Shown piece by piece: positions 11,788-58,367 of a stretch of 61,299 nucleotides of DNA. The stretch is from Clostridiales bacterium (lineage in GTDB: Bacteria > Bacillota > Clostridia > Christensenellales > Aristaeellaceae), in NCBI GenBank assembly GCA_015056415.1, contig SVGJ01000012.1:1-61299 (forward strand), read 5' to 3'. The first letter of the stretch is position 1; each line of letters begins with the position of its first letter. Position numbers and translations under genes: made by a program. Under the pieces are notes generated by a model. It made no database searches and was not told the DNA's origin. It saw only the letters and a program-made list of their open reading frames with translations.

Positions 11788-11857
11788 GCTGCGACCATGT
11801 GTGGTTCAGTGCCTTGTTACGACAAACAAAGCCAATGAAAAGATACCCGTCACCCCC

Positions 11858-11886
11858 TTGATTTTCCTGCGGTTCTGTGCTATCAT
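11858..11886 (+). promoter_or_regulatory. Promoter of tRNA-Arg
   Basis: -35 TTGATT (11858-11863), 17-base spacer, -10 TATCAT (11881-11886); the tRNA begins 22 bases after the -10. Confidence 0.7.
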
Positions 11887-11907
11887 AATTGGGCTGCAAA
11901 GCGATAT

Positions 11908-11981
11908 GCGCCCGTAGCTCAGTTGGATAGAGTGTCAGACTCCGACTCTGAAGGTCACTGGTTCGAATCCAGCCGGGCGTA
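11908..11981 (+). tRNA. tRNA-Arg (anticodon CCG)
   Basis: A 74-nt cloverleaf. Acceptor stem GCGCCCG pairs with CGGGCGT (G-U at the first pair). TA occupies positions 8-9, the D arm is GCTCAGTTGGATAGAGT, and the anticodon stem TCAGA/TCTGA encloses the loop CTCCGAC with anticodon CCG, reading CGG arginine codons. The T arm contains GGTTCGAATCC, and the discriminator base is A. The 3' CCA is not encoded (ACAT follows). It has its own promoter and a terminator just downstream. Confidence 0.95.
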
Positions 11982-11987
11982 CATTTC

Positions 11988-12025
11988 AAACCCTTGGAAA
12001 TTCAGCGTTTCCGAGGGTTTTTATT
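11988..12025 (+). terminator. Terminator of tRNA-Arg
   Basis: AAACCCTTGGAAA (11988-12000) pairs with TTTCCGAGGGTTT (12008-12020), followed by TTATTTTT. Confidence 0.85.
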
Positions 12026-12105
12026 TTTCTCATTTTGTGCCAGAGGACGCAAATAGCCTCATTTTTCCACATGATAATTCGGCACATGGTATCTCCCGAT
12101 GCAGC

Positions 12106-12134
12106 TTGCCATCTCATGGTATGTGTGGTATTAT
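12106..12134 (+). promoter_or_regulatory. Promoter of small protein gene
   Basis: -35 TTGCCA (12106-12111), 17-base spacer, -10 TATTAT (12129-12134), 33 bases before the start codon of the small gene. Confidence 0.7.
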
Positions 12135-12166
12135 GGTACAAAGTGTGAAAGGCATAGGTGGCGCAT

Positions 12167-12340
12167 ATGGAACCGAAGGATTATACCGTTATCAGAATAG
12201 AGGGAGAGTATGCCTACCTCCGTGCGGATGACGTCGCAGCTGGAGATGATCTTTTCATTGCAATGGCGTTGCTTCCGGCTGATATTGATGTGGGAACCAG
12301 GCTGCACTATGAGATGTTTTGCTACACGGTCATGGAGTAA
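12167..12340 (+). CDS. Small SH3-like protein, possibly DUF3006-like
   Basis: A 57-residue acidic protein (MEPKDYTVIRIEGEYAYLRA...). The order 'RIEG-x-YAYL', then an acidic turn, then 'LPADIDVGTRLHYE' resembles the small beta-barrel DUF3006-type proteins, but the match is loose. It has its own near-consensus promoter, an AGGTGG ribosome binding site and a strong terminator, so it is a real stand-alone gene and not a fragment. The stop is followed closely by a 12-base copy of the tRNA-Arg 3' end (12345-12356). Function unknown; a role as a small cytosolic regulator cannot be judged from sequence. Confidence 0.65.
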   Translation: MEPKDYTVIRIEGEYAYLRADDVAAGDDLFIAMALLPADIDVGTRLHYEMFCYTVME

Positions 12341-12344
12341 GCAG

Positions 12345-12356
12345 GCCGGGCGTACA
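12345..12356 (+). repeat. 12-base copy of tRNA-Arg 3' end
   Basis: GCCGGGCGTACA is identical to 11972-11983, which spans the 3' acceptor strand, discriminator base and next two bases of tRNA-Arg. The two copies bracket the small gene and its promoter. Confidence 0.6.
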
Positions 12357-12357
12357 C

Positions 12358-12395
12358 ACCGCGATCCCTTGTGATATAAGGGGTTGCGGTTTTTT
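12358..12395 (+). terminator. Terminator of small protein gene
   Basis: ACCGCGATCCCTT (12358-12370) pairs imperfectly with AAGGGGTTGCGGT (12378-12390), followed by six T. Confidence 0.85.
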
Positions 12396-12423
12396 ATGCG
12401 TGCTTGGGGGGCGCGGCGCGTGG

Positions 12424-12462
12424 AAAAAGAGCCCTTGATCTGCAATGGATCAAGGGCTCTTG
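12424..12462 (-). terminator. Terminator of ABC exporter operon
   Basis: On the minus strand a long stem, AAGAGCCCTTGATC with GATCAAGGGCTCTT, is followed by a T tract (A tract at 12424-12428 on the plus strand). Confidence 0.9.
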
Positions 12463-12480
12463 ACATACGGCGGAGTGTTT

Positions 12481-14265
12481 TCAGGCGTTCAGGTGGCGGT
12501 ACAGGCGGTCGTACTGGGCGTGGTTGGCGCGCAGCTCGTCGTGGGTGCCGCTTTCAACGATATGCCCGCCCTCCAGCACGAGGATCTGATCCGCGTGGCG
12601 GATGGTGGAGAGCCTGTGCGCGATGACGATGCAGGTGCGGCCCTTCATCATATCGGTCAGCACCTCGTTGACCTCCAGCTCAGTGCGGGGATCGATGGAG
12701 CTCATGGCTTCATCGATGACCACGATGCTGGGATCCATGGCAAGGATGCGGGCGACGCTCAGCAGCTGACGCTCGCCGATGCTCCAGTGGCAATCGCTGT
12801 TGGACATGGGTGTGTGGTACTTCCAGGGAAGCGCCTCGATGCGCTCGTGCAGATGGGCCTTGCGGGCAGCCTCCACGCACTTTTCCATGCTGGGCTCGCT
12901 GCAGCCGTACATGATGTTGTCATACACGGTGCCGTCAACGATGTAGGTATCCTGCAGGGCGATGGCGCAGTTTTCGCGCAGCTGGCGAAGGGGGATCTGC
13001 TGCAGGTCGGTTTCGCCAAAGAGGATAGCGCCCTGGTCAGGACTGTAGAAGCGCAGAAGAAGATTAGCGATGGTGGTTTTGCCCGCGCCTGTAGCGCCTA
13101 CCAGAGCGGTGGTTTTGCCGGCGGGGATGCGGACGGTCAGCTGGTCCAGCACGGGCTTGCGCCGTGTGTAAGAGAAGCTCACGTCCGTGAACTGAATATC
13201 GCTGGCAAAGCAGGCGGGATCAGCCTGGGAGGCGCTTTCGGGCAGCCGGTATTCCTCCTGAGGCTGATCGGCCAGCTCGAAGATGCGGTCCGCGCTGGAA
13301 AGGGAGACCTGCAGCTTGCTGAACAGATCGCTCAGGTCATTGATGCTCTTGACAAACTGGCGGGAATAGAGGATGGCGCTCTGGAGCGCGCCCACGTGGA
13401 TGGTCTGCTCCGCGACCAGGACACAGCCTATGACGATCACAAAGAAGAAGCCCAGATTGCCAAAGGTCATCATCAGAGGCTCCAGCAGGCCGCGCAGATA
13501 TTGCAGGCGGAAGGAATCCTGGGCCAGCTGGTCGCTGATGGTTTTTGCATCGTGGAAGATATCCTTCTTTTTGCGCAGCATACGCAGGGCGGAGAAATTG
13601 GCGATGGCGTCGGTCACGTGGCTGTTGGTGCGGCCCAGGGTACGCTGCTGACGGATGGCGGCCTCGAACACCTTGCGGGAAAGCATGGTGGTGACCAGCA
13701 ACGAAACGGCTACTGTGACGATATTGACCCACATCAGCGCCGGGGCGACCTTGAAGATCAGCACCAGGCAGGCGCCGATGGACAGCCCCGCCGAAAGGAA
13801 GGAGCAGAGCACCTGGGGCAGCAGGCCGGAGAGATTCTCTACATCGTTGAGCAGGCGACTCATGATATCGCCGTGCTGGTGGGTATCCAGGTAGTACAAC
13901 GGCAGATGGAGCACCTTGTGGAACAGACGGGAGCGGATGTTCCGGGCCAGCTGCTGCGAGGCTTTGGCGCCGATGCGGCCCTGGCACAGCCCCAGCAGTG
14001 CCGAAAGAAGGAAGGCGCCCAGCAGCAGCGTCATGGTACGCATGAAGGGGTTGTTGCCGGGATGCTGGCCGAAGAGCCGCAGAACCTGATCCAGCGCTGT
14101 GCCGATCAAAAGCGGCGTGGCCAGGCTGAAGGCGGTGCCGAAGATGCAGCAGAGGATGAGCAGATTACGGGTCTTTTTGGGCACCATGGCAAGGCTGCGG
14201 CGCAGCAGAGCCCTGCGTTCGGCGCCTTTTTTCTTACCACCCATGGGCAGAGGATTGTTGTTCAT
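12481..14265 (-). CDS. ABC exporter half-transporter (catalytic-site subunit)
   Basis: A 594-residue half-transporter with an N-terminal six-helix type I exporter domain and a C-terminal nucleotide-binding domain. Walker A is VGATGAGKTT and Walker B is IVVIDEAMSS with the catalytic Glu intact. The signature is degenerate (WSIGERQLL instead of LSGGQ). Together with the partner at 14262-15977 this makes an asymmetric heterodimeric ABC exporter of the TM287/288 or LmrCD kind. The functional ATP site would use this subunit's Walker motifs and the partner's signature. Substrate is unknown (drug, lipid or peptide). The start at 14265 follows GGAGGGA and overlaps the partner's stop by 4 bases; an upstream extension of the frame runs inside the partner gene and was rejected. 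A strong terminator follows. Confidence 0.92.
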   Translation of the reverse strand: MNNNPLPMGGKKKGAERRALLRRSLAMVPKKTRNLLILCCIFGTAFSLATPLLIGTALDQVLRLFGQHPGNNPFMRTMTLLLGAFLLSALLGLCQGRIGAKASQQLARNIRSRLFHKVLHLPLYYLDTHQHGDIMSRLLNDVENLSGLLPQVLCSFLSAGLSIGACLVLIFKVAPALMWVNIVTVAVSLLVTTMLSRKVFEAAIRQQRTLGRTNSHVTDAIANFSALRMLRKKKDIFHDAKTISDQLAQDSFRLQYLRGLLEPLMMTFGNLGFFFVIVIGCVLVAEQTIHVGALQSAILYSRQFVKSINDLSDLFSKLQVSLSSADRIFELADQPQEEYRLPESASQADPACFASDIQFTDVSFSYTRRKPVLDQLTVRIPAGKTTALVGATGAGKTTIANLLLRFYSPDQGAILFGETDLQQIPLRQLRENCAIALQDTYIVDGTVYDNIMYGCSEPSMEKCVEAARKAHLHERIEALPWKYHTPMSNSDCHWSIGERQLLSVARILAMDPSIVVIDEAMSSIDPRTELEVNEVLTDMMKGRTCIVIAHRLSTIRHADQILVLEGGHIVESGTHDELRANHAQYDRLYRHLNA

Positions 14266-15977
14266 TGGCGTCCCTCCTCTGCCTTTTGTGCGTCGCAGAG
14301 CCTGCGGTAGGCTTCGCAGCCCTCCAGCATGGCTTCGTGGTCGCCCAGGCACACAAGCTGTGCGTCGTCCAGCATGGCGATCCGGGGGAAACGGGAGAGG
14401 GTGGAGACTCGCTGGCTGACCACGAGCAGCGTGCGCTCCTCCTGGCTGGAAAGCAGCGAGGTCATCAGCCGGTGCTCCGTATCCAGATCCATGGAGGAGG
14501 AGCTGTCGTCCAGCAGCAGGACGCGGGGCTTGCGCAAAAGCGCGCGGGCCACGGCAAGGCACTGGCGCTGGCCGCCGGAAAGGGAGGCGCTGCTTTCGGA
14601 AAGGTAGGTGTTGATCCCCTCGGGCAGCGAGGCGATCAGCGGCTCCAGCTGGGCCTCGCGGGCGGCCTGGAGCACCTCCTCATCGGTGGCGTCGAATCCG
14701 CAGCGGATGTTGTTGGCCAGGGTATCGGCAAACAGGCGGCAGTTTTGCTCCACCAGCTGCACCTGCTCGTAGAGGCTTTCCAGCTGGTAATCCTGCACAG
14801 GCTTGCCATTGATCAGGATCCGGCCCTGCGTGGCGTCGGTCATGCGGCAGAGCAGGCGCAGCAGCGTGGTCTTGCCCGAGCCCGTGCCGCCGGCCAGAGC
14901 CATGGCTGAGCGGGCGGGGATAGACAGGGAAATGTCGCGCAGGACGGGCGGAGCATCGGGGGAGAAGTGATGGGAAACATTCTCCAGCTCCAGAGCGATG
15001 GGGCCCTTGGGCAGCTCGTCATCGCCGTCCTTCACCGCAGGCTGAATTCCAAAGAAGTGGCGGATGCGCTTGCCGGAGATACGCACGCGGGAAATATTGG
15101 GGAAGAACTCGCCCAGCATCATCAGCGACATGAAGATCTGCTGGATATAGGCAAAGCCTGCCATCACGCCGCCGGCGTCGATCTCGTGGCGCTGCAGGAG
15201 CATGCTGCAGGAGAAAAGCAGGATCATGGTGCCCAGATTCATCAGCAGCATGATGACGGGGTTCAGCATGGCTGTCCAGAGCTGGATGCTGATGCTGGCC
15301 TCGTACAGCTGGCCGTTTTTCTTATCGAAGGCGGCGGAGCGATCCTCCTCGCCGGTATAGGCCTTGATCAGGCGGATGCAGTCCATGGATTCCTGCATAT
15401 GGGAATTCAGCTTTTCCACATTGGTCTGGATCCGGCTGAAGTAGGGCAGCATCCTGCGGATGGTGATCACCAGCAGAACAAGCTGGATGGGCACGATGAG
15501 ATAAACCACCGTCATCAGCTTCATCTGCACCCGCATCAGCATAACCACGCCCACGATGATCAGCAGCAGCGGCTTGATGAATACAAAGATGCTCTGCATG
15601 ATGAAATCAGCAACAATACCCGTATCACTCATGATACGGGTGAGCAGCTCGCCTAGGGAAAACTCCCTGACCTGCATGGGGGAGAGCTGAAGCATATGAT
15701 GGAAGGTTTTCTTGCGCAGGCTGTTCTGGCAGGATTGGGCAGTGCGCATGCTCAGCCGGCACAGCACAACACTGACGAGGCAGGAGAGAACGATCAATCC
15801 CAGCATCAGCGCCGCTGTGGGGCGGGCGGAGGCACCCTGCTGTGTGCTGAGGTTGATCAGCCTGCTCATGATCATGGGCAGGGCGGACTGGGCGATGGTG
15901 TCCGCGGCCATCAGCAACACGATGGCCAACAGCCGCCCCTTTTCAGAACGGAGCGCTTGCTTATAAAGTGCGATCAT
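14262..15977 (-). CDS. ABC exporter half-transporter (degenerate-site subunit)
   Basis: A 571-residue type I exporter half. Six membrane helices occupy about residues 15-290, with the coupling region MQVREFSLGELLTRI. The nucleotide-binding domain has Walker A AGGTGSGKTTLL, a canonical signature SASLSGGQRQC and a Walker B ending VLLLDDSSSSMD, where Asp replaces the catalytic Glu. This complements the partner subunit exactly, as in heterodimeric exporters with one consensus and one degenerate ATP site. RBS AGGAGG precedes ATG at 15977. It lies 12 bases after the SLC13 gene in the same minus-strand unit, and stop and start overlap with the partner (ATGA), implying translational coupling and fixed stoichiometry. 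Confidence 0.92.
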   Translation of the reverse strand: MIALYKQALRSEKGRLLAIVLLMAADTIAQSALPMIMSRLINLSTQQGASARPTAALMLGLIVLSCLVSVVLCRLSMRTAQSCQNSLRKKTFHHMLQLSPMQVREFSLGELLTRIMSDTGIVADFIMQSIFVFIKPLLLIIVGVVMLMRVQMKLMTVVYLIVPIQLVLLVITIRRMLPYFSRIQTNVEKLNSHMQESMDCIRLIKAYTGEEDRSAAFDKKNGQLYEASISIQLWTAMLNPVIMLLMNLGTMILLFSCSMLLQRHEIDAGGVMAGFAYIQQIFMSLMMLGEFFPNISRVRISGKRIRHFFGIQPAVKDGDDELPKGPIALELENVSHHFSPDAPPVLRDISLSIPARSAMALAGGTGSGKTTLLRLLCRMTDATQGRILINGKPVQDYQLESLYEQVQLVEQNCRLFADTLANNIRCGFDATDEEVLQAAREAQLEPLIASLPEGINTYLSESSASLSGGQRQCLAVARALLRKPRVLLLDDSSSSMDLDTEHRLMTSLLSSQEERTLLVVSQRVSTLSRFPRIAMLDDAQLVCLGDHEAMLEGCEAYRRLCDAQKAEEGRQ

Positions 15978-15989
15978 AGTGCCTCCTGT

Positions 15990-17384
15990 TTAGAGCGGAG
16001 CGATCGTATTCAGGAGGGGGAAGAGCAGGCAGACCACGATGATCATGGATAGCTGCAGCCAGATGGTGACTTTGGGCAGGTCGAACATTTTATAGCCGTT
16101 TTGCGAGAAAGTGACCACAGGCACCGTATCCAGCGGCAGCAGGTAGCAGTTTTCCACACACAGGCCGCAGACCATGGCCAGCATGACGGGGTTCATGCCG
16201 TTGGCATTGGCGAACATACACACGATGGGCAGCAGGATGTTGGCGGAGGCGGGTGCCACCGGCACAGCCACCATGAAGATGAAGGTGGCGCCGGCGATCA
16301 GCGCGAGGGCAACAGGCAGCGGAAGTCCCGTAACGCCGGGGAAAAGCACGCTGCTGATCTGCTCAGCCAGGCCGGAGGAAACCACCGCCGAGCCTACGGA
16401 GATCATCGTACCGGCGATGAAAAAGGCGGGCCAGCTGTTGGCGCGTGAAAACTCATCCCAGGTGAGCACTGCGTGTCCGGGAATAAACAGGAACGCCAGC
16501 GCCACCAGCGCCACCATTGAGGTGTGCAGCGCAGGGATCCAGGAACTGGCGATCCACGCGGCGATGGTCAGGCCCACCAGAATGATGATGTATCGGTCCT
16601 GGCGGCCGGCCTTCTGGTCGCCATGGCTCAGGGAAGTCAGGAAGGACTCGATGCCCTGGGAGGGCAGTGCGGGCAGCTTGAAGACAAGGGTCAGGAAGAA
16701 GATGGCCAGCGCCAGCATACACGCGGTGATCGGGATGCCGTACATCATCCACTTGACAAAGGGGATGCCCGCGCCGGTGCTGTTCTCCACGGCGTCGATG
16801 ACCAGCAGGTTGATGCTGGAGCCGGCCGGGGTGGACATACCGCCGATCATGGCTGCCAGCGTGATGCCGATCATAAATACGCGCTTGGCCTTGACCTTGG
16901 CTTCTCCCTCGTAATTCTCCAGGAACTGCAGCGCGAAGGGCATGAAGATCACCGTGGCGGCCACATTGGAGATGAAGGCGGAAAGAACTGCGGTGCTCAG
17001 CATGATGCTGACCAGGATCTGCCGGGCGCTTTTGCCCAGACGCTTGAACAGCCAGAACAGCAGCCGCTGACAGTATAGGGATTTGGTCAGCGCCGCGGAA
17101 AGGCCGAAGGAAGCCATGGTGAAATACAGGATGTGGTTGGCATAGCCGCACAGCGCATCGCTGAAGGAGTTCACGCATTTGAACGCGAACAGAAGCGCCA
17201 CGGAAAGCAGACACACGATGGGCAGGGGCATGATCTCGAAGATGAGCATGATCAGCGTGAACAGCAATACCGCCAGGGTGCGGGTCGCGGCGGTGTCAGC
17301 CAGCAGGCCGGGGATCAGCGCGGCCACCAGCACAAGGACGGCTACGATGCCGGCGATGATCTGATGGGGTTTGAGCTTGGTCAT
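15990..17384 (-). CDS. SLC13/DASS-family anion:sodium symporter-like permease
   Basis: A 464-residue integral membrane protein with about 12 hydrophobic segments. It has the divalent anion:Na+ symporter layout: an early SVALLFAFKCVNSFSDALCG, the loop GGMSTPAGSSINLL characteristic of the substrate and sodium hairpin, and a second VPVAPASANILLP near residue 385. Family members take up citrate, succinate, sulfate or related anions; this branch is not assignable. Start at 17384 overlaps the stop of the upstream membrane protein gene by 4 bases (ATGA), so the two are coupled. The downstream ABC exporter genes follow within 12 bases. Confidence 0.85.
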   Translation of the reverse strand: MTKLKPHQIIAGIVAVLVLVAALIPGLLADTAATRTLAVLLFTLIMLIFEIMPLPIVCLLSVALLFAFKCVNSFSDALCGYANHILYFTMASFGLSAALTKSLYCQRLLFWLFKRLGKSARQILVSIMLSTAVLSAFISNVAATVIFMPFALQFLENYEGEAKVKAKRVFMIGITLAAMIGGMSTPAGSSINLLVIDAVENSTGAGIPFVKWMMYGIPITACMLALAIFFLTLVFKLPALPSQGIESFLTSLSHGDQKAGRQDRYIIILVGLTIAAWIASSWIPALHTSMVALVALAFLFIPGHAVLTWDEFSRANSWPAFFIAGTMISVGSAVVSSGLAEQISSVLFPGVTGLPLPVALALIAGATFIFMVAVPVAPASANILLPIVCMFANANGMNPVMLAMVCGLCVENCYLLPLDTVPVVTFSQNGYKMFDLPKVTIWLQLSMIIVVCLLFPLLNTIAPL

Positions 17385-18928
17385 TTCTCGGAGGCCTCCT
17401 GTGTGGTGGAATCGTCGGTGGCTTCGCTGTCGAAGAGCTTGTGCTGCAGGGCGTCATCGGCGATGCCGGTCTCCTCCAGGCCAAAGTCCTTCTGGGCGGC
17501 TTTGACGGCGGTAACGGTGGTGGTGGAGTAGGTGCCGGTGGCCTTTTGCATATAGCCCAGACCGACCAGCTTATCCTGCAGGCGGGTCACGCGTTCGCCC
17601 TTGTCGCCGGAAGCAAGGTCGTCATAGGTCACGCGGGCGTCGCCGTCGGTCAGCGGGAAGTAGATGTCGTGATCTTCGCCGTCCAGGAAATAGCGGAGAC
17701 GGATGAACTGAACCTGATCGGAGTACTCATAGCGCTTGTACAGTGTGACGGTATTCTTGGCCTTGATGGAGGCGTTGTAGTCGCCCTTCATCAGCTTGGT
17801 GAGGAGCTGGTATTCCTCCACCTCGGAGCCATCGGCCGTAACCACGGAAATGCTGAAGGCATCCTGGGGGATGATGGTCGCGAGGGTGTTCTCGGCGTCG
17901 GCGTTGGTATAGGAGAACTTCAGGGCGACGCCTGCCTCGGAGCCGGTAAGGTTGAAGGTGGAACCGTAATCCTTCGCGAAGTCCTCGGGCGTGTAGACAT
18001 TCTCCAGGGTGACGGTGCAATCCAGCGTGTAGTAGGTGGTGGTCGTGGCGTTCAGGCGGGGCGTGCCGGTGGAAAGGAGCTGCGTCTGGAAGGTGACGGC
18101 CTGGTAGGGCGGCACGTATACAGCCTCATGCTCCTCGGTCTCGACACGCTCGATGGAGGAGGTGGTGACCTCGGTGGTCTCCTCGGTGGGCGTGGGCAGG
18201 AAGTAATCCAGGTAGGTGCGGAAGCTTCCCCAGTTGACATACAGCACGATAACCAGCGCGAGCGTGAGCAGGAAGGTGCTCAGGGTGAGCAGGAAGCTCC
18301 TGACACGGGTCTTGGCGCGCATTTCGGACCGGTCAAACTCGTACTCCATTTCCATTTCGGCGTATGCATTGCGCAGCGCCAGCTGGAATTGCTCGGCAGT
18401 ATAGGCGACCTCGCTCCGCACCACAAGCGTACCGGCGGAGGCTTCATCCTCGCCGGCAGCGGGGGATTCATCCAGGATCACCACGGGTTCCACGGCAATG
18501 GGCTCGTCGGACGCACCGGTTTCTGCGGCTACGGTCTCGTCTGTCTTGCTTACTGGCTCAAGAATGACAGGCGCAGCCTCGCTGGCAGTGGCCGGTTCCT
18601 CCACGGGCGCTTCGGCGGGAGCCTCCACGACAGCGGAAACCTCGGGGTCCGTCAGCGTCAGCATGATGTGCCCCTCATCGGCGTGCTCAATCTGAACCTC
18701 CAGGGTCTGGCCATCCGTCAGGGAAAATGAAAAAGAAGCCAGCGAGCTATGCTCCTGCGCCAGGCCTTCCGGGCTGATGCACTTGATAAAGCGCTGCTTT
18801 TCCGCCAGCGTGCTGATCCGGGGCAGATAAGCCGCACGCAGGTCATCCAGCGCTTCACGCCGGCCGTTTTCCATATTGACCAGCTCAAAGGTCTTGTTGT
18901 TCAGCAGGTAGCCTTTAACGGTGTTCAC
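17381..18928 (-). CDS. Single-pass membrane protein with C-terminal peptidoglycan-binding module
   Basis: A 515-residue protein. The N-terminal cytoplasmic region (about 1-85; VKGYLLNNKTFELVNMENGR) is of unknown fold and is followed by a Glu/Ala/Pro-rich linker. A basic segment leads into one transmembrane helix (about 218-238, LLTLSTFLLTLALVIVLYV), then a PTPTEET linker and an extracellular beta-rich domain. A peptidoglycan-binding-1 module sits near the end (GDKGERVTRLQDKLVGLGYM). The start is a GTG at 18928 preceded by GGAGG at good spacing; an ATG 24 codons upstream lacks an RBS and lies between the Big2 terminator and the RBS. It is coupled to the SLC13 gene. It could link cell-wall status to transport, but this is only inference from architecture. 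Confidence 0.7.
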   Translation of the reverse strand: MNTVKGYLLNNKTFELVNMENGRREALDDLRAAYLPRISTLAEKQRFIKCISPEGLAQEHSSLASFSFSLTDGQTLEVQIEHADEGHIMLTLTDPEVSAVVEAPAEAPVEEPATASEAAPVILEPVSKTDETVAAETGASDEPIAVEPVVILDESPAAGEDEASAGTLVVRSEVAYTAEQFQLALRNAYAEMEMEYEFDRSEMRAKTRVRSFLLTLSTFLLTLALVIVLYVNWGSFRTYLDYFLPTPTEETTEVTTSSIERVETEEHEAVYVPPYQAVTFQTQLLSTGTPRLNATTTTYYTLDCTVTLENVYTPEDFAKDYGSTFNLTGSEAGVALKFSYTNADAENTLATIIPQDAFSISVVTADGSEVEEYQLLTKLMKGDYNASIKAKNTVTLYKRYEYSDQVQFIRLRYFLDGEDHDIYFPLTDGDARVTYDDLASGDKGERVTRLQDKLVGLGYMQKATGTYSTTTVTAVKAAQKDFGLEETGIADDALQHKLFDSEATDDSTTQEASEK

Positions 18929-47042: not shown

Positions 47043-47070
47043 ATTCAATGACATACGGTAGGTGCGGGAG

Positions 47071-47580
47071 ATGGCTGAATCCTTTCTGACCCTGATGGCT
47101 GATTATTGCGAAGAGGATCAGCAGAGGATCGGTCGGTGGTATGACGCGCTGCAGCGGGCCGGTTTCCAGGGCCAGCAGACGCCGGGACTGCCGATGCATA
47201 TCAGCCTTGCCAGCTTCCCCCTGGACAGGGAGGATGAAGCCATCCGGCTGATGAAGAGGGTGGCGGCGGAGTTCGGCCCCGTGCAGGCGGCGATCCGTCA
47301 TGTGGGCGTGTTCCCCGGCGGCAAGGTGCTCTTTGCCGCGCCGGACCTTACCCCGGAGCTTGCCGTGCTGCAGCAGGCCTGCGGTGATAACATCGTACAC
47401 GGCTTCCCCTGGACGCCTCACACCACCATGCTGATCGACGAGCCGGAGTCCATTGGCGCCGCGCTGCCCGTGCTGATGCGGCACTTCGAGCCCATCCAGG
47501 CCCGCATCGACAGGCTGCATCTGTGCGCCTTCTGGCCCACCAGAGAGATCCTGCGGGTGGAGTTGAACGGGAAAGCATAA
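47071..47580 (+). CDS. 2H phosphoesterase / 2'-5' RNA ligase-like protein
   Basis: A 169-residue protein with the paired H-x-S/T motifs of the 2H superfamily: PMHISLASF and WTPHTTMLI, separated by about 75 residues. The fold is completed by 'VGVFPGGKVLFAAPDL' strands. Members hydrolyse cyclic nucleotide or RNA 2',3'-cyclic phosphates, or ligate 2'-5' ends. Its location in a polysaccharide operon is unexplained. The ATG at 47071 was preferred over a GTG three codons upstream. It is followed by a terminator hairpin at 47590. Confidence 0.8.
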   Translation: MAESFLTLMADYCEEDQQRIGRWYDALQRAGFQGQQTPGLPMHISLASFPLDREDEAIRLMKRVAAEFGPVQAAIRHVGVFPGGKVLFAAPDLTPELAVLQQACGDNIVHGFPWTPHTTMLIDEPESIGAALPVLMRHFEPIQARIDRLHLCAFWPTREILRVELNGKA

Positions 47581-47589
47581 CAGAAAATG

Positions 47590-47620
47590 AAGAGACACGC
47601 CGCTCGCGTGACTCTTTTTT
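47590..47620 (+). terminator. Terminator of polysaccharide operon
   Basis: AGAGACACGC pairs with GCGTGACTCT (one A-A mismatch), followed by TTTTTTT. Confidence 0.8.
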
Positions 47621-47634
47621 TGTGCCGTGAAGTA

Positions 47635-47663
47635 TTGTCTTTTCATTGCTTTTCCCGTACAAT
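47635..47663 (+). promoter_or_regulatory. Promoter of galE
   Basis: -35 TTGTCT (47635-47640), 17-base spacer, -10 TACAAT (47658-47663). Confidence 0.75.
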
Positions 47664-47715
47664 ATATAAGGGTGCGTATGTGCATCGACGGATACGGATA
47701 GGGGAGGTTTTTCCT

Positions 47716-48732
47716 GTGAATATACTCTTGACCGGCGGCGCGGGCTACATTGCCAGCCATACCTGCGTGGAGCTGCTCCAGGCGGGGCACGATGTGGTGA
47801 TCGTGGATAACTATGTCAACAGCCATCACGAGGCCCTCAAGCGCGTGGAGGAGATCGTGGGCAAGCCCGTCAAGGCCTATGAAGCCGATGTGTGCGACAG
47901 GGAAGCCATGGATCGCATCTTTGAGGAAAACAGGTTCGACGCGGTGATCCACTTCGCCGGGCTGAAGGCCGTGGGCGAGAGCGTGTCCATCCCGCTGCGG
48001 TATTACCGCAACAACCTGGATTCCACCCTGACCCTTTGCGAGACCATGGCGGCCCATGGCTGCAAGCGGCTGGTGTTCTCCTCCTCGGCCACGGTATACG
48101 GCGTGCCGGATGAGGTTCCCCTGCGGGAGGATATGTTCTGCAAGGGCTGCACCAATCCCTATGGCTGGACCAAGTACATGATCGAAAAGATCCTGGAGGG
48201 CGTGGTGAACGCCGATCCCGAGTGGAGCGTGGTGCTGCTGCGCTATTTCAATCCCATCGGCGCGCACGAGTCCGGCCGCATCGGCGAGGATCCCAACGGC
48301 ATCCCCAACAACCTGATGCCCTTTATCACCAAGGTAGCAGCGGGTCAGCTGGAGAAGCTGAGCGTCTTTGGCGATGATTACAATACCCCCGACGGCACCG
48401 GCGTGCGCGATTATATCCACGTGGTGGATCTGGCCAGGGGTCATGTGGCGGCCTGTGATTACGCCGCCCGCACCACCGGCTGCGAGATCATCAACCTGGG
48501 CACCGGTGTGGGCTACTCCGTGCTGGACATCGTCAACGCCTTTGTGCGGGTGAACGGTGTGCCCGTGCCCTATGTGATCGCGCCCCGCCGCCCCGGCGAT
48601 ATCGACGCCTGCTTTGCCGACCCGGCCAAGGCGGAGAAGCTCCTGGGCTGGAAGGCGGAAAAATCCCTGGAGGATATGTGCCGGGATTCCTGGCGCTGGC
48701 AGAGTGCCAATCCCAAGGGTTACGTGGGCTGA
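47716..48732 (+). CDS. galE: UDP-glucose 4-epimerase
   Basis: A 338-residue short-chain-dehydrogenase-fold epimerase. NAD-binding LLTGGAGYIASHTCVELL is at the N-terminus, then HFAGLKAVGES, SSSATVYG and the catalytic YGWTKYM (Tyr-x-x-x-Lys). LRYFNPIGAHESGRIGEDP and RPGDIDACFADPAKA are typical of GalE. It interconverts UDP-glucose and UDP-galactose (and possibly the N-acetyl forms), feeding glycan synthesis with the neighbouring genes and the glycosyltransferases at 55.5-57.2 kb. The start is a GTG at 47716 after GGGGAGG. It has its own promoter and a strong terminator. Confidence 0.96.
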   Translation: MNILLTGGAGYIASHTCVELLQAGHDVVIVDNYVNSHHEALKRVEEIVGKPVKAYEADVCDREAMDRIFEENRFDAVIHFAGLKAVGESVSIPLRYYRNNLDSTLTLCETMAAHGCKRLVFSSSATVYGVPDEVPLREDMFCKGCTNPYGWTKYMIEKILEGVVNADPEWSVVLLRYFNPIGAHESGRIGEDPNGIPNNLMPFITKVAAGQLEKLSVFGDDYNTPDGTGVRDYIHVVDLARGHVAACDYAARTTGCEIINLGTGVGYSVLDIVNAFVRVNGVPVPYVIAPRRPGDIDACFADPAKAEKLLGWKAEKSLEDMCRDSWRWQSANPKGYVG

Positions 48733-48746
48733 TAAATAATGCTTTT

Positions 48747-48774
48747 GCGCGGAAGAACCCCTTCCGCGCTTTTT
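48747..48774 (+). terminator. Terminator of galE
   Basis: GCGCGGAAG (48747-48755) pairs with CTTCCGCGC (48761-48769), followed by TTTTT. It ends only 17 bases before the next start codon. Confidence 0.9.
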
Positions 48775-48790
48775 ACACTGGAGGTGCGCG

Positions 48791-50668
48791 ATGATGAAAC
48801 GCGTGATGGTGCTCTTTGGCAGCGCGGGCTGCGCGGTGGCGCAGAGCGTGCTTTATGCTGCCTGCGCAGGCGCCTGGTCCGGAGAGACCGACCTGCTGCT
48901 GGTGGTCAACGGTGCATCGGACGCGGCGGCGGAGCGCGCCTCCCTGCTGTTTGCACAGTATGAGAAGCTCCGTACCAGGATGGACACTGTGCCCGGAGAG
49001 CGTATGGGCTTCACCGCTCCGCTGCAGCTGCGTGTCTGGCCCGGTGAATTGCCGCAGAAGTCCATCGAAGGCTGGGCCTCCGGGGCTGATGACGCCCTGC
49101 TGTGCCGGGCGCTGTTTTCCCGGGCCACAGCCACTCAGGACCTGAACGAAGACCTTTCCGGCCACGATGACGCGGCGCGGGCGCTGTATGCCGCGCTGAT
49201 GAAAGAAGACGTGCCGCTGGCGGAGATCTCCGGGGATACGCGGCTTGTGCTGGTGGGCAGCCTGGCTGATGGCTGGGGCGCCGCGGGCGTGGATGCGTTT
49301 ACCCGTTGGCTCGAGCTGCGGAAGCCTCAAATGGCGACTGTGCTGCTCATGCCCTACGCCGGGCAGGACGATCATGCCCACCGGCGAGCTGAGGCGGCGC
49401 TGGGCTGGCTCGCCCATGGCGAAACAGTGTATCTGCTGGGTACCGGCGAGAGCGACTGCGCCTCTGCGGAGGCGGGCGCTGCCAATCTGGTGGAGTGGCT
49501 GGCAGCCAGCTGCACGGACAGCTTTTTCCGCGCGGAAAAGCCCGCTGTGGGGCTGATGACCTACCGGGTCGCCTCAGGCAAGCTGGGGTGGGAGAGCTTC
49601 CCGGCGGCGTACCGGGTGTGCTTCGGCAGCCTGCTGAAGACCGCCGCGGCCTTCCGCCTTACCTTTGAACCGGCGATCCGCCGGGGACTGACCTCGCCTA
49701 AATGGCTCAGGGACAAGATGATCGGCTGGTATGCCGGATATTTCCATCAGGCGCAGAAAATGACCGATGAACAGCGCGGCGCCATGCTGGCCGAGCTGGA
49801 CGCCGCCGCGGCATTGCTGGACGGCTTTGCCCGGTGGATGTGTCAGGTGCTGCGCAACCTGCCGCCGCTCCTGCGCTCCTCCAGCGCTATGGAGCAGGCG
49901 CGGCAGGAGGCAGCGGATAATTATCGCCAGTATATCGAAACAGCTGGCCAGCTGGCTGTGATGATCCGTGAGGCCGAGCAGAGCGGCCTGCTGGAGGAAA
50001 AGGTCGTCCACCGCCATGATATGGAGGACAACGAGGCCGAAAAAATGCAGAAGATCTTCCAGCAGATGGAGGCGCGCAAGCAGGCGCTGGCGGCACGCCA
50101 GGAGGAGTTGAACCTCCGCATGGGCGGCGCGGCGCAGCTGCTGATGATGAAGCAGACCATTCAGGAGATCCGCCAGCGCGATGAGGAGGTCCATGCCCAG
50201 GCGGCCGAGGCTGCCCGCCGCATCGACGAGGCGGAGCTGATCGCCACGGCAGAGGATCAGCACAGGATCACCACGGCCCGTACCAAGCTGCAGCGCATGG
50301 AGCGCTATGTGGCGCAGCTGGACGCTTGTATGCTCATCGCCCGCCTGGAGCGGGAAAAGGCCAAGGCAGCCGGCGTCAGGCACAATCCGCCACGGATTGC
50401 CATGGATACTACCATGCCGGAAAACGGTATGTTCGACCCCAGGGCGCTGGAGAAGCTGGAGAGCCTGCCTGCGCAGACGGATAAGAATGCCAAGCGCCTC
50501 TGGGCTGAGGCGGAGGCCGCCTGGACGGGGCTGGTACTGCCCGTGAAGGGCAGCGAAGCCAACCTGGCGGAGCTGGCCGGCAGCCTGAAGACGAAAGAAG
50601 AATTTGCTTCCCCTGTGGCCGCGCTGCTGCGGGATATGACGCTGGCTGTGGCAAAGGAGGTGCGCTGA
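48791..50668 (+). CDS. Tubulin/FtsZ-like protein with C-terminal coiled coil
   Basis: A 625-residue protein not recognised as a named family. Residues 5-20 (VMVLFGSAGCAVAQSV) look like the first strand and Gly turn of an FtsZ/tubulin Rossmann domain. Residues 155-166 (VGSLADGWGAAG) sit where the tubulin T4 loop (GGGTGTG) belongs, LLMPYAG (185-191) matches the 'VTxPF' strand about 30 residues later, and TVYLLG (212-217) matches the following 'LIVIPN' strand. These spacings equal those of FtsZ, but the loops are degenerate and no T7 catalytic Asp is evident. The C-terminal half contains a long Glu/Arg/Lys/Gln-rich coiled coil (about 360-530). RBS GGAGGT precedes ATG 48791 (48794 also possible). 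It is coupled to the actin-like gene. Confidence 0.5.
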   Translation: MMKRVMVLFGSAGCAVAQSVLYAACAGAWSGETDLLLVVNGASDAAAERASLLFAQYEKLRTRMDTVPGERMGFTAPLQLRVWPGELPQKSIEGWASGADDALLCRALFSRATATQDLNEDLSGHDDAARALYAALMKEDVPLAEISGDTRLVLVGSLADGWGAAGVDAFTRWLELRKPQMATVLLMPYAGQDDHAHRRAEAALGWLAHGETVYLLGTGESDCASAEAGAANLVEWLAASCTDSFFRAEKPAVGLMTYRVASGKLGWESFPAAYRVCFGSLLKTAAAFRLTFEPAIRRGLTSPKWLRDKMIGWYAGYFHQAQKMTDEQRGAMLAELDAAAALLDGFARWMCQVLRNLPPLLRSSSAMEQARQEAADNYRQYIETAGQLAVMIREAEQSGLLEEKVVHRHDMEDNEAEKMQKIFQQMEARKQALAARQEELNLRMGGAAQLLMMKQTIQEIRQRDEEVHAQAAEAARRIDEAELIATAEDQHRITTARTKLQRMERYVAQLDACMLIARLEREKAKAAGVRHNPPRIAMDTTMPENGMFDPRALEKLESLPAQTDKNAKRLWAEAEAAWTGLVLPVKGSEANLAELAGSLKTKEEFASPVAALLRDMTLAVAKEVR

Positions 50669-53600
50669 TGCCTGAGGGAATGACCTTCCTGCCCGATGAG
50701 AAGGATATCGAGCTTTCCTCCGGCGTGGGTATTGTCGCCGCGCCGCTGAACGGTCTGCAAAGCCTTGCCGCGCCCCGTGCCGGCCTGAAAATGGAGGAGG
50801 ACGCCTGGCGTGGCCTGCTGGCCTTCTGCCTGCTGGCTGACGCCTGGGGCGTGGACGGCGTGACGGTGAAGACTATCCGCCCGGAGCAATCCGCCTTCGC
50901 CTCGGCCGTCCTGCGGGAGAAGATTAGCCTCGTGCTGTGGCAGCGCGAGGTGCTGGGCGTGTTGAACCGGCAAGCCGGGATCGTTCCCGCGGCGCAGCTG
51001 CGGACGGTGGAACTCCCCGAGCGGGTCTTCTGGTACGACGGGACCTTCCACGACCCCACGGACGAATTGAACGAGCGTGACCGTACGCTGCTGATCTGCC
51101 GGCTCAGCGCGATGAACCAGCAGGGGGAAGCCGCCGTGCAGCGTTTTATTTCCGCGCTGACGCAGGCGGGGCTGCGGTCTGCGCAGCTGGTAGCTCACCA
51201 GGATGAGAAGACCATGGCAAACCTGGCGCTGCGCATGAAGGCCATCCTGGGCCAGACGCCCGGTGTGGAAGAGCAGCGGGATCCCTATGCCGCCGCGCCG
51301 GTGAATCCGCTGCTGGCCGCCCTTGGCCTGGCGGAACGTGATGAACCTCCGGCGCTTTCCCTGACGTGGCGCTACAACGGCACGATCATCGCCCGCAGCA
51401 GCAGCGCCATTTATTGCGAGGGGATCGATACGTCCGAAGCGGAGGCGGCACTGGAGAATATCGCGCAGGATATCCGGATGCTGGAGCAGTATTCGCCCAC
51501 CTGGCGGCAGAACCTTGCACGGCGCACGCAGGATTGGCTGAACCGGCACCAGGACGATCGGGCGCTGCTGCCCATCGTGCGCACGCTGGCCGAGGAGATC
51601 CGCTATCAGGCCGGTGTACCCTTGCCTGCAGAGCAACTGCGCTTGCAATGGCCCTGGAAGGCCGGTGGCGTGGTCAGCACACTTTGGCATGAAGCGCTGG
51701 GTGAAGAGCTGGATGCCGGCATGGTCAACCCCTTCGCGGATGAACTGTGCCTGCTGCCCGGCGGCGCGTGGAACGCCCTGGGCGATGCGGTGCTCAGCCG
51801 CCTGTGCGTGCTGCCCGGTGACGCCATGGAGCCCGCCGCGGCGGTGGTGCCGCCCCTTTCACGGGAACTGGCTGCCTGCGTGGGCGACCGGCTGATGATG
51901 GAAAGCTTCTCCTTCCGCCGTACGGAGGATGGCGGCGTGTGCGCGTCCTTTGCCCTGCGCGGTAAGGATCAGGCTATGCTGGAGCGGGTCTACGCCCCCG
52001 GGGAGATCCGCCGCCTTTCCATGGAGGAGGCGCCTACAGTGGCGGTGTGGCCCTGCCTGCCCCTGCCCGAAAGAAGCTGGCGGGCGTATTATGTGTATAT
52101 TCATGGCGGAACCATCCGTGCCTCCGCGCTGCATCAGGGCAGGTGGCTGATCACGGAGGATCGCCTCTTTTCGGTGCTGAAGACTGAATCCTTCCCGGAA
52201 ATGATCGCCCTGCATGCCGACGGGCGATGCCTTGGCGTGCTGCCCAACAGCCTGCCGCCCTGCCAGCCCGCCCGCACGGAAACCGCGCTGGGCCTGCTGG
52301 ATGTGGGCGCTTCCGGCATTGCGCTGGGCCTGATGCAGGGGGAAGCGGCGGAACCGGTGCAGGTGCCCGGCCTGGTGCGCACGCTGCTGCGGGGCGGCAA
52401 AGCTGCCCCCTTGAGCGAGGAATTCCTCCCCGCGGCGCCCCTGGGGCCGGTGCTTCCGGCGGCGGTGGAGCTGTTCAATCAAAAAGAGGAGCCCATCCCG
52501 CTGGTGGACGGACATATCCTGACGCCCGAGACCTGCACTGCTCTGGCCGGCCGGGAAGCCAAGGCCATGCATTCCGCGTGGAAGTGGAGCGTGGACGCTC
52601 CCGCCCGCAGAGCACGGCGGATGATGCTCCACCAGGCGATGCTGACGGCCTCGCTGGCGGCGGTGCTGAAGGGCGCCCCCTCCATCTCATGGCGGATCGC
52701 CCTGCCCGAGGGCATGGCTGCCGAGGGCAGGCGTGAGCTGTGGCAGGAGATCAGCGACCTGGCACCGGTGGTGGCTGCCTCCTGTGGATTGCCGCTGAAG
52801 GACAAGTCTGTCTCCCACGGTGATGAGAGCCTGGCGCTGGGTACATATCTGCGCAGCGAGGGCACGGTGCGCGGTGGATTTATGGCGCTGGACGTGGGCA
52901 GCGGCGACGCTTCCATGGCGCTGTGGCTGCGGGGAATGAATCGCCCCGCAGTGCGGTGCAATCTGCCCCTGGGTGTGCAGTCCATGCTGCTGGACGGCCT
53001 GATGCAGCACCCCGGCGCCCTGGAGAGCGATTTTGCCGATATGCCCGACGAGAACGCTCGCCAGAGCGTGCTGCTCCTGGCCGGCCAGCTGCGGGCAGCC
53101 AGCGGACGCAAGGAGCTGGAAAAAGGCCGGTTCCTGCTGGATCAGTGCCTGAATGAGTATGGCACGGCGCTTTCCGCCCACATGAACAACCGCTTTGCTC
53201 AGGGCAGGACGACCGTGACGCAATCGCTGGTGCTGCAAGCCTTCGCCGCGCTGCTGGCCCTGAGCGGCCTGGTGATGGAGCAGGTGCGGCGGGATCCCCT
53301 GCTGAACGATTACCTGCCCGCGGAGATGACCTTCATCATGGCGGGCAAGGGCAATCAGCTGATGAACGCCATGCCGGAGTATCTCAAATCGGCGCTGGCG
53401 CAGTTTGTGCGGCTGGAGATGAGCGGCGATCACCCCGTGCGCGGCATGCGCTTCCTTTTCAGCGCGGCGCCCAAGTGCGATACCATCATGGGCCTGGCAC
53501 GGATGACGGAGGTGCGTACCGACCCGCCTGCCGCGCCCAAAAACCTGCGGGCCAGCGCTCAGCTGCCCATGCCGCCGGATCTGCTGATGATGCGGTTTCT

Positions 53601-53799
53601 CTCGGCATTCCGGAGCGTTTTCCCCCAGGCGAGCCATATGCTCTACGGTCATGTGTTTGACCAGGCCGGGATGATCACCCGCGAGGGCGAAAACCTGATC
53701 CGCGCCACGGCGGCAAGATATTTCGCCGCCGCGGGAGAGCCGGAGGCGGCGCTGGCAACCTGCCTGACGGAGCTGCGGCAGATCATCGCCGATGAGTGA
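50668..53799 (+). CDS. Large protein with C-terminal actin/Hsp70-fold ATPase, SrfB-like
   Basis: A 1043-residue protein. The first 530 residues have no recognised domain. From there the three ASKHA nucleotide-binding motifs appear in order: phosphate-1 LLDVGASGIALG (Asp545), phosphate-2 ALDVGSGDASMAL (Asp742) and adenosine FIMAGKGNQ (Gly893). The spacings, 197 and 151 residues, are close to those in Hsp70 (about 184 and 141). Size and C-terminal actin-like domain recall the SrfB virulence-factor family, but I cannot confirm homology. No signal peptide or membrane helix is visible. The start ATG overlaps the upstream stop (TGATG) and AAAGGAGGTG precedes it, so both proteins are made together, possibly as a complex. 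Confidence 0.55.
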   Translation: MPEGMTFLPDEKDIELSSGVGIVAAPLNGLQSLAAPRAGLKMEEDAWRGLLAFCLLADAWGVDGVTVKTIRPEQSAFASAVLREKISLVLWQREVLGVLNRQAGIVPAAQLRTVELPERVFWYDGTFHDPTDELNERDRTLLICRLSAMNQQGEAAVQRFISALTQAGLRSAQLVAHQDEKTMANLALRMKAILGQTPGVEEQRDPYAAAPVNPLLAALGLAERDEPPALSLTWRYNGTIIARSSSAIYCEGIDTSEAEAALENIAQDIRMLEQYSPTWRQNLARRTQDWLNRHQDDRALLPIVRTLAEEIRYQAGVPLPAEQLRLQWPWKAGGVVSTLWHEALGEELDAGMVNPFADELCLLPGGAWNALGDAVLSRLCVLPGDAMEPAAAVVPPLSRELAACVGDRLMMESFSFRRTEDGGVCASFALRGKDQAMLERVYAPGEIRRLSMEEAPTVAVWPCLPLPERSWRAYYVYIHGGTIRASALHQGRWLITEDRLFSVLKTESFPEMIALHADGRCLGVLPNSLPPCQPARTETALGLLDVGASGIALGLMQGEAAEPVQVPGLVRTLLRGGKAAPLSEEFLPAAPLGPVLPAAVELFNQKEEPIPLVDGHILTPETCTALAGREAKAMHSAWKWSVDAPARRARRMMLHQAMLTASLAAVLKGAPSISWRIALPEGMAAEGRRELWQEISDLAPVVAASCGLPLKDKSVSHGDESLALGTYLRSEGTVRGGFMALDVGSGDASMALWLRGMNRPAVRCNLPLGVQSMLLDGLMQHPGALESDFADMPDENARQSVLLLAGQLRAASGRKELEKGRFLLDQCLNEYGTALSAHMNNRFAQGRTTVTQSLVLQAFAALLALSGLVMEQVRRDPLLNDYLPAEMTFIMAGKGNQLMNAMPEYLKSALAQFVRLEMSGDHPVRGMRFLFSAAPKCDTIMGLARMTEVRTDPPAAPKNLRASAQLPMPPDLLMMRFLSAFRSVFPQASHMLYGHVFDQAGMITREGENLIRATAARYFAAAGEPEAALATCLTELRQIIADE

Positions 53800-57289: not shown

Positions 57290-57311
57290 AACGTCATATA
57301 CTGGAGGAGGA

Positions 57312-58367
57312 ATGCCATATACGCATTTGCTTTGCCTCCCGTATCGAATCCATATATATAGAAAGAGGTTCCCTTTGAGTAAATTCGCGATTTTTGTTGA
57401 TCTGGAAAACTGCGGCGCCAAGGTGGCCACGCTCAACAGCATCCTGGAGAAGGTCAAGATCCGCGGCGATATCCTGCTGGGCAAGGTCTATGGCTATACC
57501 GACAGGTTTTCCGATTTGAAGGAGGTGCTGCTGAGCAACACCTTCACCGTGGTGCCCTCGCTGCGCTACGGCATCTCGCAGAAGAACAACGCCGATATCC
57601 AGCTGGTGATCGACGCGCTTTCCGTGGCATATACCAACGACCTGATCGATTCCTTCTGCATCGTTTCCGGCGACAGCGACTATACGCCCCTGGTGGGTAA
57701 GCTGAAGTCCATGGGCAAGTTCGTGCTGGGCATCAGCCGAAGCGAGGCGGCCAGCAATGTGTTTATCAACGCCTGCAATGAGTTCCAGTTCCTGGAGAGT
57801 GTGGGCGGCCGCAGCGTGACCCCTTCCAAGAAGCGCAAGGGCAATTCCAGCGCCGAGGAAATGCTGGACGAGGTCGAATTGAACAAGCTCCTGTGCTCCG
57901 TTTTCCAGGAGCAGAGCGACACGGAAGAGATGTACGCCAGCGAGCTCAAGGGTGTTCTTTTGCGCCTGAGGCCCGATTTCAACGAGAAGGCCTACGGCTG
58001 CGCCACCTTCTACAAGCTTTTGCAGAAGCTGGCCGGCAAGTATGGCGATCTCCATGTGAAGAACGATAATTTCAACGTGATGGTGCGCCTGAATACCCGT
58101 GCCGAATCCGGCGAGGGCATTCCCCAATTGACCCGCGAGAACTGGCGCGAGGCCTTCGCTGCACAGATCAAGGCCTACAAGGAGGGCGGCTTCGACCGGG
58201 TGAACCCCTCCATCCTCAAGGCGGATATCATCACTGCCTATCCCGATTTCAACGAGCGCGCCATCGGCTTCAAGCGCTTCTCCGACGTGATGAAGGAGCT
58301 GGAGAAGGAAAAGCTGGTGGTCGTTGAAATGGACGAACAGAAGACGATGCTCATCAAGCTGCTGTAA
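57312..58367 (+). CDS. NYN-domain putative RNase with two LOTUS/OST-HTH domains
   Basis: A 351-residue protein (330 if the TTG at 57375 is used). The NYN/PIN-like nuclease domain has FAIFVDLENCGAKV, KNNADIQLVIDAL and CIVSGDSDYTPLVGKLKSMGK, placing the acidic active-site residues normally. Two LOTUS/OST-HTH domains follow (ELKGVLLRLRPDFNEKAYG; LKADIITAYPDFNERAIGFKRF). NYN-LOTUS proteins are RNA- or G-quadruplex-binding nucleases, as in MARF1. ATG 57312 has GGAGGAGG immediately upstream and close to the predicted transcription start. TTG 57375 has GAGG and matches the expected domain beginning. I keep the longer form with low certainty about the start. Confidence 0.8.
   Translation: MPYTHLLCLPYRIHIYRKRFPLSKFAIFVDLENCGAKVATLNSILEKVKIRGDILLGKVYGYTDRFSDLKEVLLSNTFTVVPSLRYGISQKNNADIQLVIDALSVAYTNDLIDSFCIVSGDSDYTPLVGKLKSMGKFVLGISRSEAASNVFINACNEFQFLESVGGRSVTPSKKRKGNSSAEEMLDEVELNKLLCSVFQEQSDTEEMYASELKGVLLRLRPDFNEKAYGCATFYKLLQKLAGKYGDLHVKNDNFNVMVRLNTRAESGEGIPQLTRENWREAFAAQIKAYKEGGFDRVNPSILKADIITAYPDFNERAIGFKRFSDVMKELEKEKLVVVEMDEQKTMLIKLL

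Follow-up and report, generated by a model that had tools for sequence, protein, structure and literature searches.

We analysed contig SVGJ01000012.1 of a Clostridiales bacterium (assembly GCA_015056415.1) over its positions 1 to 61,299, a stretch of 61,299 nucleotides that is hereafter called the window. It carries two large overlapping genes, here named A and B, whose products appear to combine a tubulin-like and an actin/Hsp70-like fold.

48791..50668, + strand: gene A, encoding a putative tubulin/FtsZ-superfamily protein of 625 amino acids (aa) with a helical/coiled-coil C-terminal part (open reading frame (ORF), AlphaFold2 (AF2) model, VIA-align, homologues)
50654..50661, + strand: ribosome-binding site of B, AAGGAGGT, within the end codons of A and 6 nucleotides (nt) before the ATG of B, with similar sites in relatives
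50668..53799, + strand: gene B, encoding a large protein of 1043 aa with a predicted actin/Hsp70-superfamily (ASKHA) C-terminal half (ORF, profiles)

Conservation, adjacency and fusion of A and B

An earlier note on this DNA had described two long genes overlapping by one base, and this was borne out. Both frames are open over the intervals given above, and the TGA of A (50666-50668) shares its last base with the ATG of B (50668-50670). Gene A begins with ATG ATG, and its relatives favour the second ATG, at 48794, as the start. Within the genus, the A-B junction of the relatives is either the same as in the window or closely spaced. The ratios of nonsynonymous to synonymous substitutions (dN/dS) in comparison with genome G004 were about 0.22 for A and about 0.25 for B, indicating purifying selection, and those between two close relatives were 0.13 and 0.14, respectively. 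Since B is present in 18/18 same-genus genomes, the genes are under purifying selection, and the motif residues of B are near-invariant (see below), the pair is more than a chance arrangement. These results confirmed that the A-B pair is real, conserved and unusual.

Gene B was found in 23/60 relatives' genomes, comprising all 18 of the genus (own genome included) and 5/42 of the others, and in 66/200 sampled genomes of the family, where it occurred in 13 of the 50 genera. A search of the class with a wider B profile (A2) recovered B in 2/391 genomes, own included. A profile of seven distant B homologues (A6) matched 30/391, among which the window's genome, G310 and G498 were strong and the other 27 were short and weak, in frames of 337-434 aa. 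B was found in 2/299 genomes in the phylum search, own included, and in 11/248 in the order search, own genome and family members included; the phage and plasmid collections gave no B match. Judged from these searches, B homologues appear to be rare outside the family. The 14 named homologue records are metagenome-assembled Clostridia or Clostridiales, with one Christensenellaceae, and ruminant gut samples are named in 11 of the 14 titles.

The two genes also proved to be neighbours in the relatives. They were adjacent in 21/21 loci with both sides visible (22 loci, the contig of L034 beginning at B). In a second batch, A and B were adjacent or fused in 19/20 loci; 7 were fused, L100-L108, L111 and L112 were adjacent, and L110 was adjacent with A in two pieces. 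Adjacency was likewise seen in L143, L186 and L188. As a separate observation, B is split into several ORFs in L045 (8443-11628; G019) and the divided A of L110 lies at 11246-12696 (G310), which may reflect recent decay or assembly errors in either case, and L044 (G031) contains spurious-looking ORFs with near-identical stretches (11579-12037 and 14816-17713) that suggest interspersed DNA repeats around A-B.

In g50, a sister genus of the window's genus, A and B form a single uninterrupted ORF of 1722-1756 aa in 7/7 fetched loci (L093-L099; genomes G197, G217, G105, G066, G168, G129 and G184), a fusion that is new. In the fused proteins, the match of the A profile fell within residues 2-629, with E values from 4.1e-20 to 6.9e-44, and that of the B profile within residues 662-1736, with E values from 2.8e-191 to 1.5e-195; the fused N-terminal part aligned with intact A in HHalign at 99% (E 5e-18). 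A profile search placed B within frames of 1732, 1772 and 1589 aa in three more g50 genomes, whose loci were not fetched; the last of these (G208) has its B divided between two contigs. The fused rows formed one clade with a support of 100, and dN/dS values of 0.06 and 0.11 indicated strong purifying selection on the fused genes. Since G197 and G217, both carrying the fused gene, are single-contig genomes, a cultured host may exist. The pairing and the fusion suggest that A and B work as one machine.

Predicted folds of the two proteins

48794..49597, + strand: FtsZ/tubulin-like domain of A (model residues 1-268)
48818..48829, + strand: T1-like glycine turn GSAG of A, first Gly in 43/43 and last Gly in 35/43 homologues
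49256..49288, + strand: degenerate T4 loop GSLADGWGAAG of A, GGTG in 19/43 homologues
49604..50368, + strand: extended helical stretch of A, as assigned by DSSP in the AF2 model
50668..52257, + strand: N-terminal half of B, residues 1-530, with no recognised fold
52258..53787, + strand: predicted ASKHA half of B, residues 531-1040
52300..52314, + strand: phosphate-1 motif DVGAS of B (D545, G547), D in 44/45 and G in 45/45 homologues
52891..52908, + strand: phosphate-2 motif DVGSGD of B (D742, G744), D in 45/45 and G in 44/45
53344..53352, + strand: adenosine motif GKG of B (G893, G895), G in 45/45 and G in 44/45

The landmarks that the earlier note had assigned to A lie at the residues it named, G10-S-A-G13 in the glycine turn and GSLADGWGAAG at 156-166. 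Its proposal of a tubulin fold agreed with the AF2 model, for which all 50 PDB entries listed by VIA-align were members of the FtsZ/tubulin superfamily or tubulin-containing complexes. In Pfam scans at E up to 1, weak matches to Tubulin were found in 14 and to Tubulin_2 (PF13809) in 13 of 22 A homologues (best Tubulin_2 4.4e-6), and 7 of 9 distant A homologues matched Tubulin_2 (best 4.5e-7). The A protein of L143 scored 24.7 bits on Tubulin_2, below the cut-off of 27, and window A gave no PF13809 match in the Pfam scan. Taken together, these data support the prediction that the N-terminal domain of A belongs to the FtsZ/tubulin superfamily.

The GGTG signature at T4 is absent from window A and present in part of the family. 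It is kept in 10/10 A proteins from g14, g15, g41, g70, g13, f67 and f135 and in 9 members of the genus, and is lost in 24/43, namely the window, 7 genus relatives, L042, L045, 7/7 of g68/g72 and 7/7 fused proteins. The underlying alignment (A1) contains spurious extensions at the N-termini of L042 and L046, and the tree labels for the T4 state include some rows without A. Because the T4 loop of the window is degenerate, GTP binding by window A is doubtful. The tubulin half seems to drift toward a non-GTP-binding state, with the ATP site of its partner probably retained.

The three actin/Hsp70 motifs that had been proposed for B were found in place and in order, as LLDVGAS at D545, LDVGSGD at D742 and AGKGN at G893. 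Of the 1043 columns, 16 are identical in at least 44/45 homologues, and these include D545, D742 and G893 as well as G547, G744 and G895; the seventh motif position counted, 549, varies, with S in 26/45. Distant B homologues have near-canonical motifs, for example GFDFGTT, DIGGGSTD and GNG, and all 6 sequences matched by profile A6 in the PDB at E up to 1 were of the actin/Hsp70 superfamily. Weak Pfam rows of B homologues included Ppx-GppA, MreB, FtsA and EutA, all ASKHA families, amid other, unrelated weak rows. When residues 531-1040 of B (45 homologues) were compared in HHalign with 26 proteins, mostly MreB-like and two FtsA-like by our reading, the match was 96.5% (E 8.2e-10) over 179 columns with the phosphate motifs in register, this set consisting of weak matches of B's own profile and the comparison therefore being not fully independent. 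In the 12 control comparisons (B 1-530, galE and A), each value was 0.6% or less, and the first half of B gave 0.0% against the mostly-MreB set and 0.1% against galE, a set of 2 sequences. Profile matches and motif conservation thus support membership of the C-terminal half of B in the actin/Hsp70 superfamily.

Genes surrounding the pair

Upstream of A, the distant relatives encode a lipoprotein-like protein of 434-723 aa, and in most of them a small membrane-type protein (149-218 aa) lies between the two; the lipoprotein and membrane assignments were made by eye. By the same kind of inspection, L107, L108, L109, L110, L143, L145 and L186 encode membrane- or secretion-type proteins downstream of B; L043, L044, L111 and L112 do not clearly do so. 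The partner lipoprotein of L186, L143 and L188 shows DxTxSM and, after it, an LS(V/I)I(T)D-type strand, which is vWA-like, and PDB profile search and Pfam gave no vWA match for it. At the level of these motifs, our guess is that it is a vWA protein. A lipoprotein profile had no match in G000 (the window's genome), G013 or G217 and recovered the A-B locus in both G030 and G857. In G498 (L143, 12014-14474), a MotA/ExbB-like coiled-coil protein (8e-5, 22.8 bits against a cut-off of 22.9) lies downstream of A-B and is followed by an OmpA-like protein (1e-5, 26.2 bits against a cut-off of 27.2). These two genes resemble a stator-type ion-channel pair. In L145 (8402-12511; G057), a 1369-aa protein with Sel1/TPR repeats by eye is encoded downstream of B, and L188 contains the start of a similar one.

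In the derived clade that includes the window, the following features lie upstream of the pair.

47587..48732, + strand: galE-like epimerase, lying outside the module and conserved upstream of A-B within the derived clade
48747..48769, + strand: strong terminator-like GC-rich hairpin with a T run, in the galE-A gap and shortly upstream of the ribosome-binding site of A at 48780-48785

The A-B pair follows galE in the window and in 16/16 genus loci with that side visible, and also in 4/4 g68, 3/3 g72 and 5/7 g50 loci; in four of these five g50 loci, the gap between galE and A-B is about 490-870 nt. Where the contig shows them, sugar transferase and nucleotidyltransferase genes usually precede galE in this clade. 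The neighbourhood may mean that the pair is functionally linked to surface sugars, or the order may simply be inherited. The hairpin crowds the ribosome-binding site of A and leaves little space for a promoter. A GCGCGGA-type stem was seen by eye in 14/17 genus galE-A gaps, with a variant in L028 and different sequences in L025 and L031, and the hairpin could terminate galE transcription or meter read-through into A-B. Among the other genes of the window, a 2'-5' RNA ligase-like gene (47062-47580; Pfam 2.4e-13) lies between the nucleotidyltransferase and galE and was undetected at the corresponding place in L025 and L027. A protein with an NYN domain (2.1e-27) and OST-HTH/LOTUS (6e-8, two stretches) is encoded at 57294-58367, and its gene is conserved nearby in the close relatives L025-L027.

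Interpretation and comparison with known systems

Our best reading is that the A-B pair is related to the FtsZl1/Tubulin_2 group but divergent from it, and has an actin-superfamily ATPase of its own. We consider it probable that A and B are dedicated partners of one protein machine, an ATPase-scaffold pair. They would form a 1:1 complex, because translational coupling or fusion sets their ratio, in which A may serve as the polymer or scaffold subunit and the ATP cycle of B may alter the conformation or assembly state of A. The ancestral A, with intact T1 and T4 loops, probably bound GTP as well, and the ancestral pair was probably tied to the cell envelope via its membrane partners. In the lineage of the window, loss of the lipoprotein partner and of the GTP loop would have left an ATP-driven, GTP-independent tubulin-fold scaffold, which possibly still acts at the envelope. 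Parts of this reading differ in strength. That A is tubulin-like and B is ASKHA-like is highly probable, and physical coupling of the two into one machine is likely; the specific mechanism of an ATPase driving a scaffold stands at about an even chance, and an envelope function in the window's lineage is possible but rather doubtful.

Several results weigh against these assignments. Neither window A nor window B passed any Pfam or NCBIfam cut-off. Profiles of A searched against the PDB at E up to 1 did not return FtsZ and gave just helical or coiled-coil matches of a chance type (Cdc37 at E 0.08, PEX14, HA2), and HHalign comparison of the N-terminal 300 residues of A with four FtsZ sequences, a very shallow profile, was insignificant (0.2-1.6%). 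Because these comparisons with FtsZ were negative, the tubulin assignment rests on the AF2 model, the Pfam matches and the loop motifs. On the side of B, window B by itself had no match in the PDB, profile A2 matched GrpE alone (E 0.4), and a second set, two near-identical MreB-like proteins intended as FtsA, gave 45% against residues 531-1040; the partial dependence of the 26-protein comparison counts here as well. In L109 (G106), A and B are on different contigs, with A at a contig end; in two other g52 genomes, the two are close together on the same contig. Finally, the evidence for an envelope link in the lineage of the window is gene order, which may reflect plain shared ancestry.

Other explanations were weighed against the ATPase-scaffold reading. 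If B folded or remodelled proteins as Hsp70 does, with A as an adaptor or client dedicated to it, the Hsp70-like spacing of D545, D742 and G893 and an ASKHA nucleotide site far more conserved than A would be accounted for. However, the adenosine motif lies about 150 residues from the C-terminal end, which is too short a stretch for the usual Hsp70 substrate-binding domain, the extra domain of B sits at the N-terminus, and Pfam scans of the window and of the relatives' B proteins showed no Hsp70 family. The profile matches of B were MreB, FtsA, actin and exopolyphosphatase, the HHalign sets including no Hsp70, and we regard a chaperone pair as unlikely. SrfB (PF07520) is a large protein with presumed actin-like motifs, and the earlier note had seen a resemblance to it in B. 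That resemblance is the sole point in favour of an SrfB-type system and was not upheld, since Pfam scans at E up to 1 gave no SrfB row for 22 A2 and 7 A6 members (B proteins, three in both sets), and no Srf-like gene was present among the 10 window neighbours given to Pfam; such a system is most improbable. Almost as implausible is that A is an unrelated Rossmann-like lookalike of tubulin whose pairing with B is neighbourhood inheritance. The weak sequence similarity of A to FtsZ would suit this, but the uniform VIA-align list, GGTG at the T4 place in 19/43 homologues, the Tubulin and Tubulin_2 matches and the A-B fusion in one genus all argue otherwise.

A further candidate is a reduced member of the GTPase-centred conflict (defence) systems predicted by Kaur et al. 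2020 (PMC7159879). The combination of a tubulin with long helices, a lipoprotein that is vWA-like at motif level and membrane components suits that theme, and the paper's overview describes tubulin homologues and a protein of the HSP70 family in combination with GTPases. Section 29 of the same paper, however, presents tubulin and HSP70 as non-overlapping themes. No GTPase family was detected by Pfam among 18 neighbour proteins of relatives (from L107, L108, L110, L111, L143 and L145) or among the 10 beside the window pair, and these neighbours showed no DO-type GTPase/GAP1 neighbourhood, GAP1 not having been searched with its own profile. The presence of B in all same-genus genomes and the conserved gene order look like a core trait rather than a patchy defence island, and B is unmatched in phages and plasmids within the collections searched. 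We therefore consider this origin improbable.

The preferred reading, an ATPase-scaffold pair, finds its closest architectural parallel in FtsZl1, defined by Makarova & Koonin 2010, who proposed a role in membrane remodelling (PMC2875224); a passage of a 2023 paper equates their group with Tubulin_2 (PMC9871819). As described there, FtsZl1 has an N-terminal FtsZ-like domain followed by a coiled coil and a helical C-terminus, an architecture that fits A by AF2 secondary structure. Both systems have membrane-associated partners, the OmpA-like partner of A-B being found in one genome and just below the Pfam cut-off. In contrast to the vWA, GTPase, kinase and OmpA partners of FtsZl1 that are named in PMC2875224, the partner of A is predicted to be of the actin superfamily, and the word hsp70 is absent from the main text of that paper. 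Correspondingly, no ASKHA gene was detected by profile or motif beside Tubulin_2 in 12 loci of the class (10 above the cut-off; two contigs of only about 6 kb), and the A1 profile barely matched the Tubulin_2 loci of the class (best E 0.04).

The GAP1-N2 conflict systems, as outlined in PMC7159879, resemble A-B in comprising Firmicutes tubulin-coiled-coil proteins with vWA and transmembrane proteins, together with HSP70 genes, a likeness judged by description rather than by sequence comparison. Unlike these, A-B has its tubulin-like and ASKHA-like proteins as direct partners or fused, with no GTPase found nearby. Apart from FtsA-FtsZ, these systems are the closest earlier association of the two folds that we found; they make the pairing, though not the fusion, less novel. 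An open-access literature search returned no A-B pair or tubulin-actin fusion by title or abstract.

The window's genome, G000, carries a separate ftsZ on contig 44 beside a gene of the FtsA family, and a separate ftsZ with an FtsA-family neighbour was found in 4/4 genomes searched (G000, G013, G217 and G197). The possibility that A-B is the cell's own ftsZ/ftsA was rejected on this ground, and with the ordinary genes on another contig, A-B is not the divisome pair. The cytoskeleton has two great folds, those of tubulin and actin, which rarely partner each other directly; the familiar case is FtsA-FtsZ. FtsA and FtsZ act together, with the actin-fold partner controlling the tubulin-fold one. 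The likeness lies in actin- and tubulin-superfamily proteins encoded side by side; the differences are the large helical C-terminus of A, the extra 530-residue N-terminal half of B and the divergent sequences. A second, separate partnership of this kind, culminating in a fused polypeptide, would offer a clean system for asking how an ATPase might drive a tubulin-fold scaffold without GTP and how a cytomotive protein becomes a pseudo-enzyme. By analogy, A-B would work like FtsA-FtsZ without being that pair, and we tentatively suggest, at somewhat less than an even chance, that it may be a second, separately evolved bacterial tubulin-plus-actin machine, with A a pseudo-GTPase in several lineages and a natural fusion of 1.7 kilo-residues in one genus.

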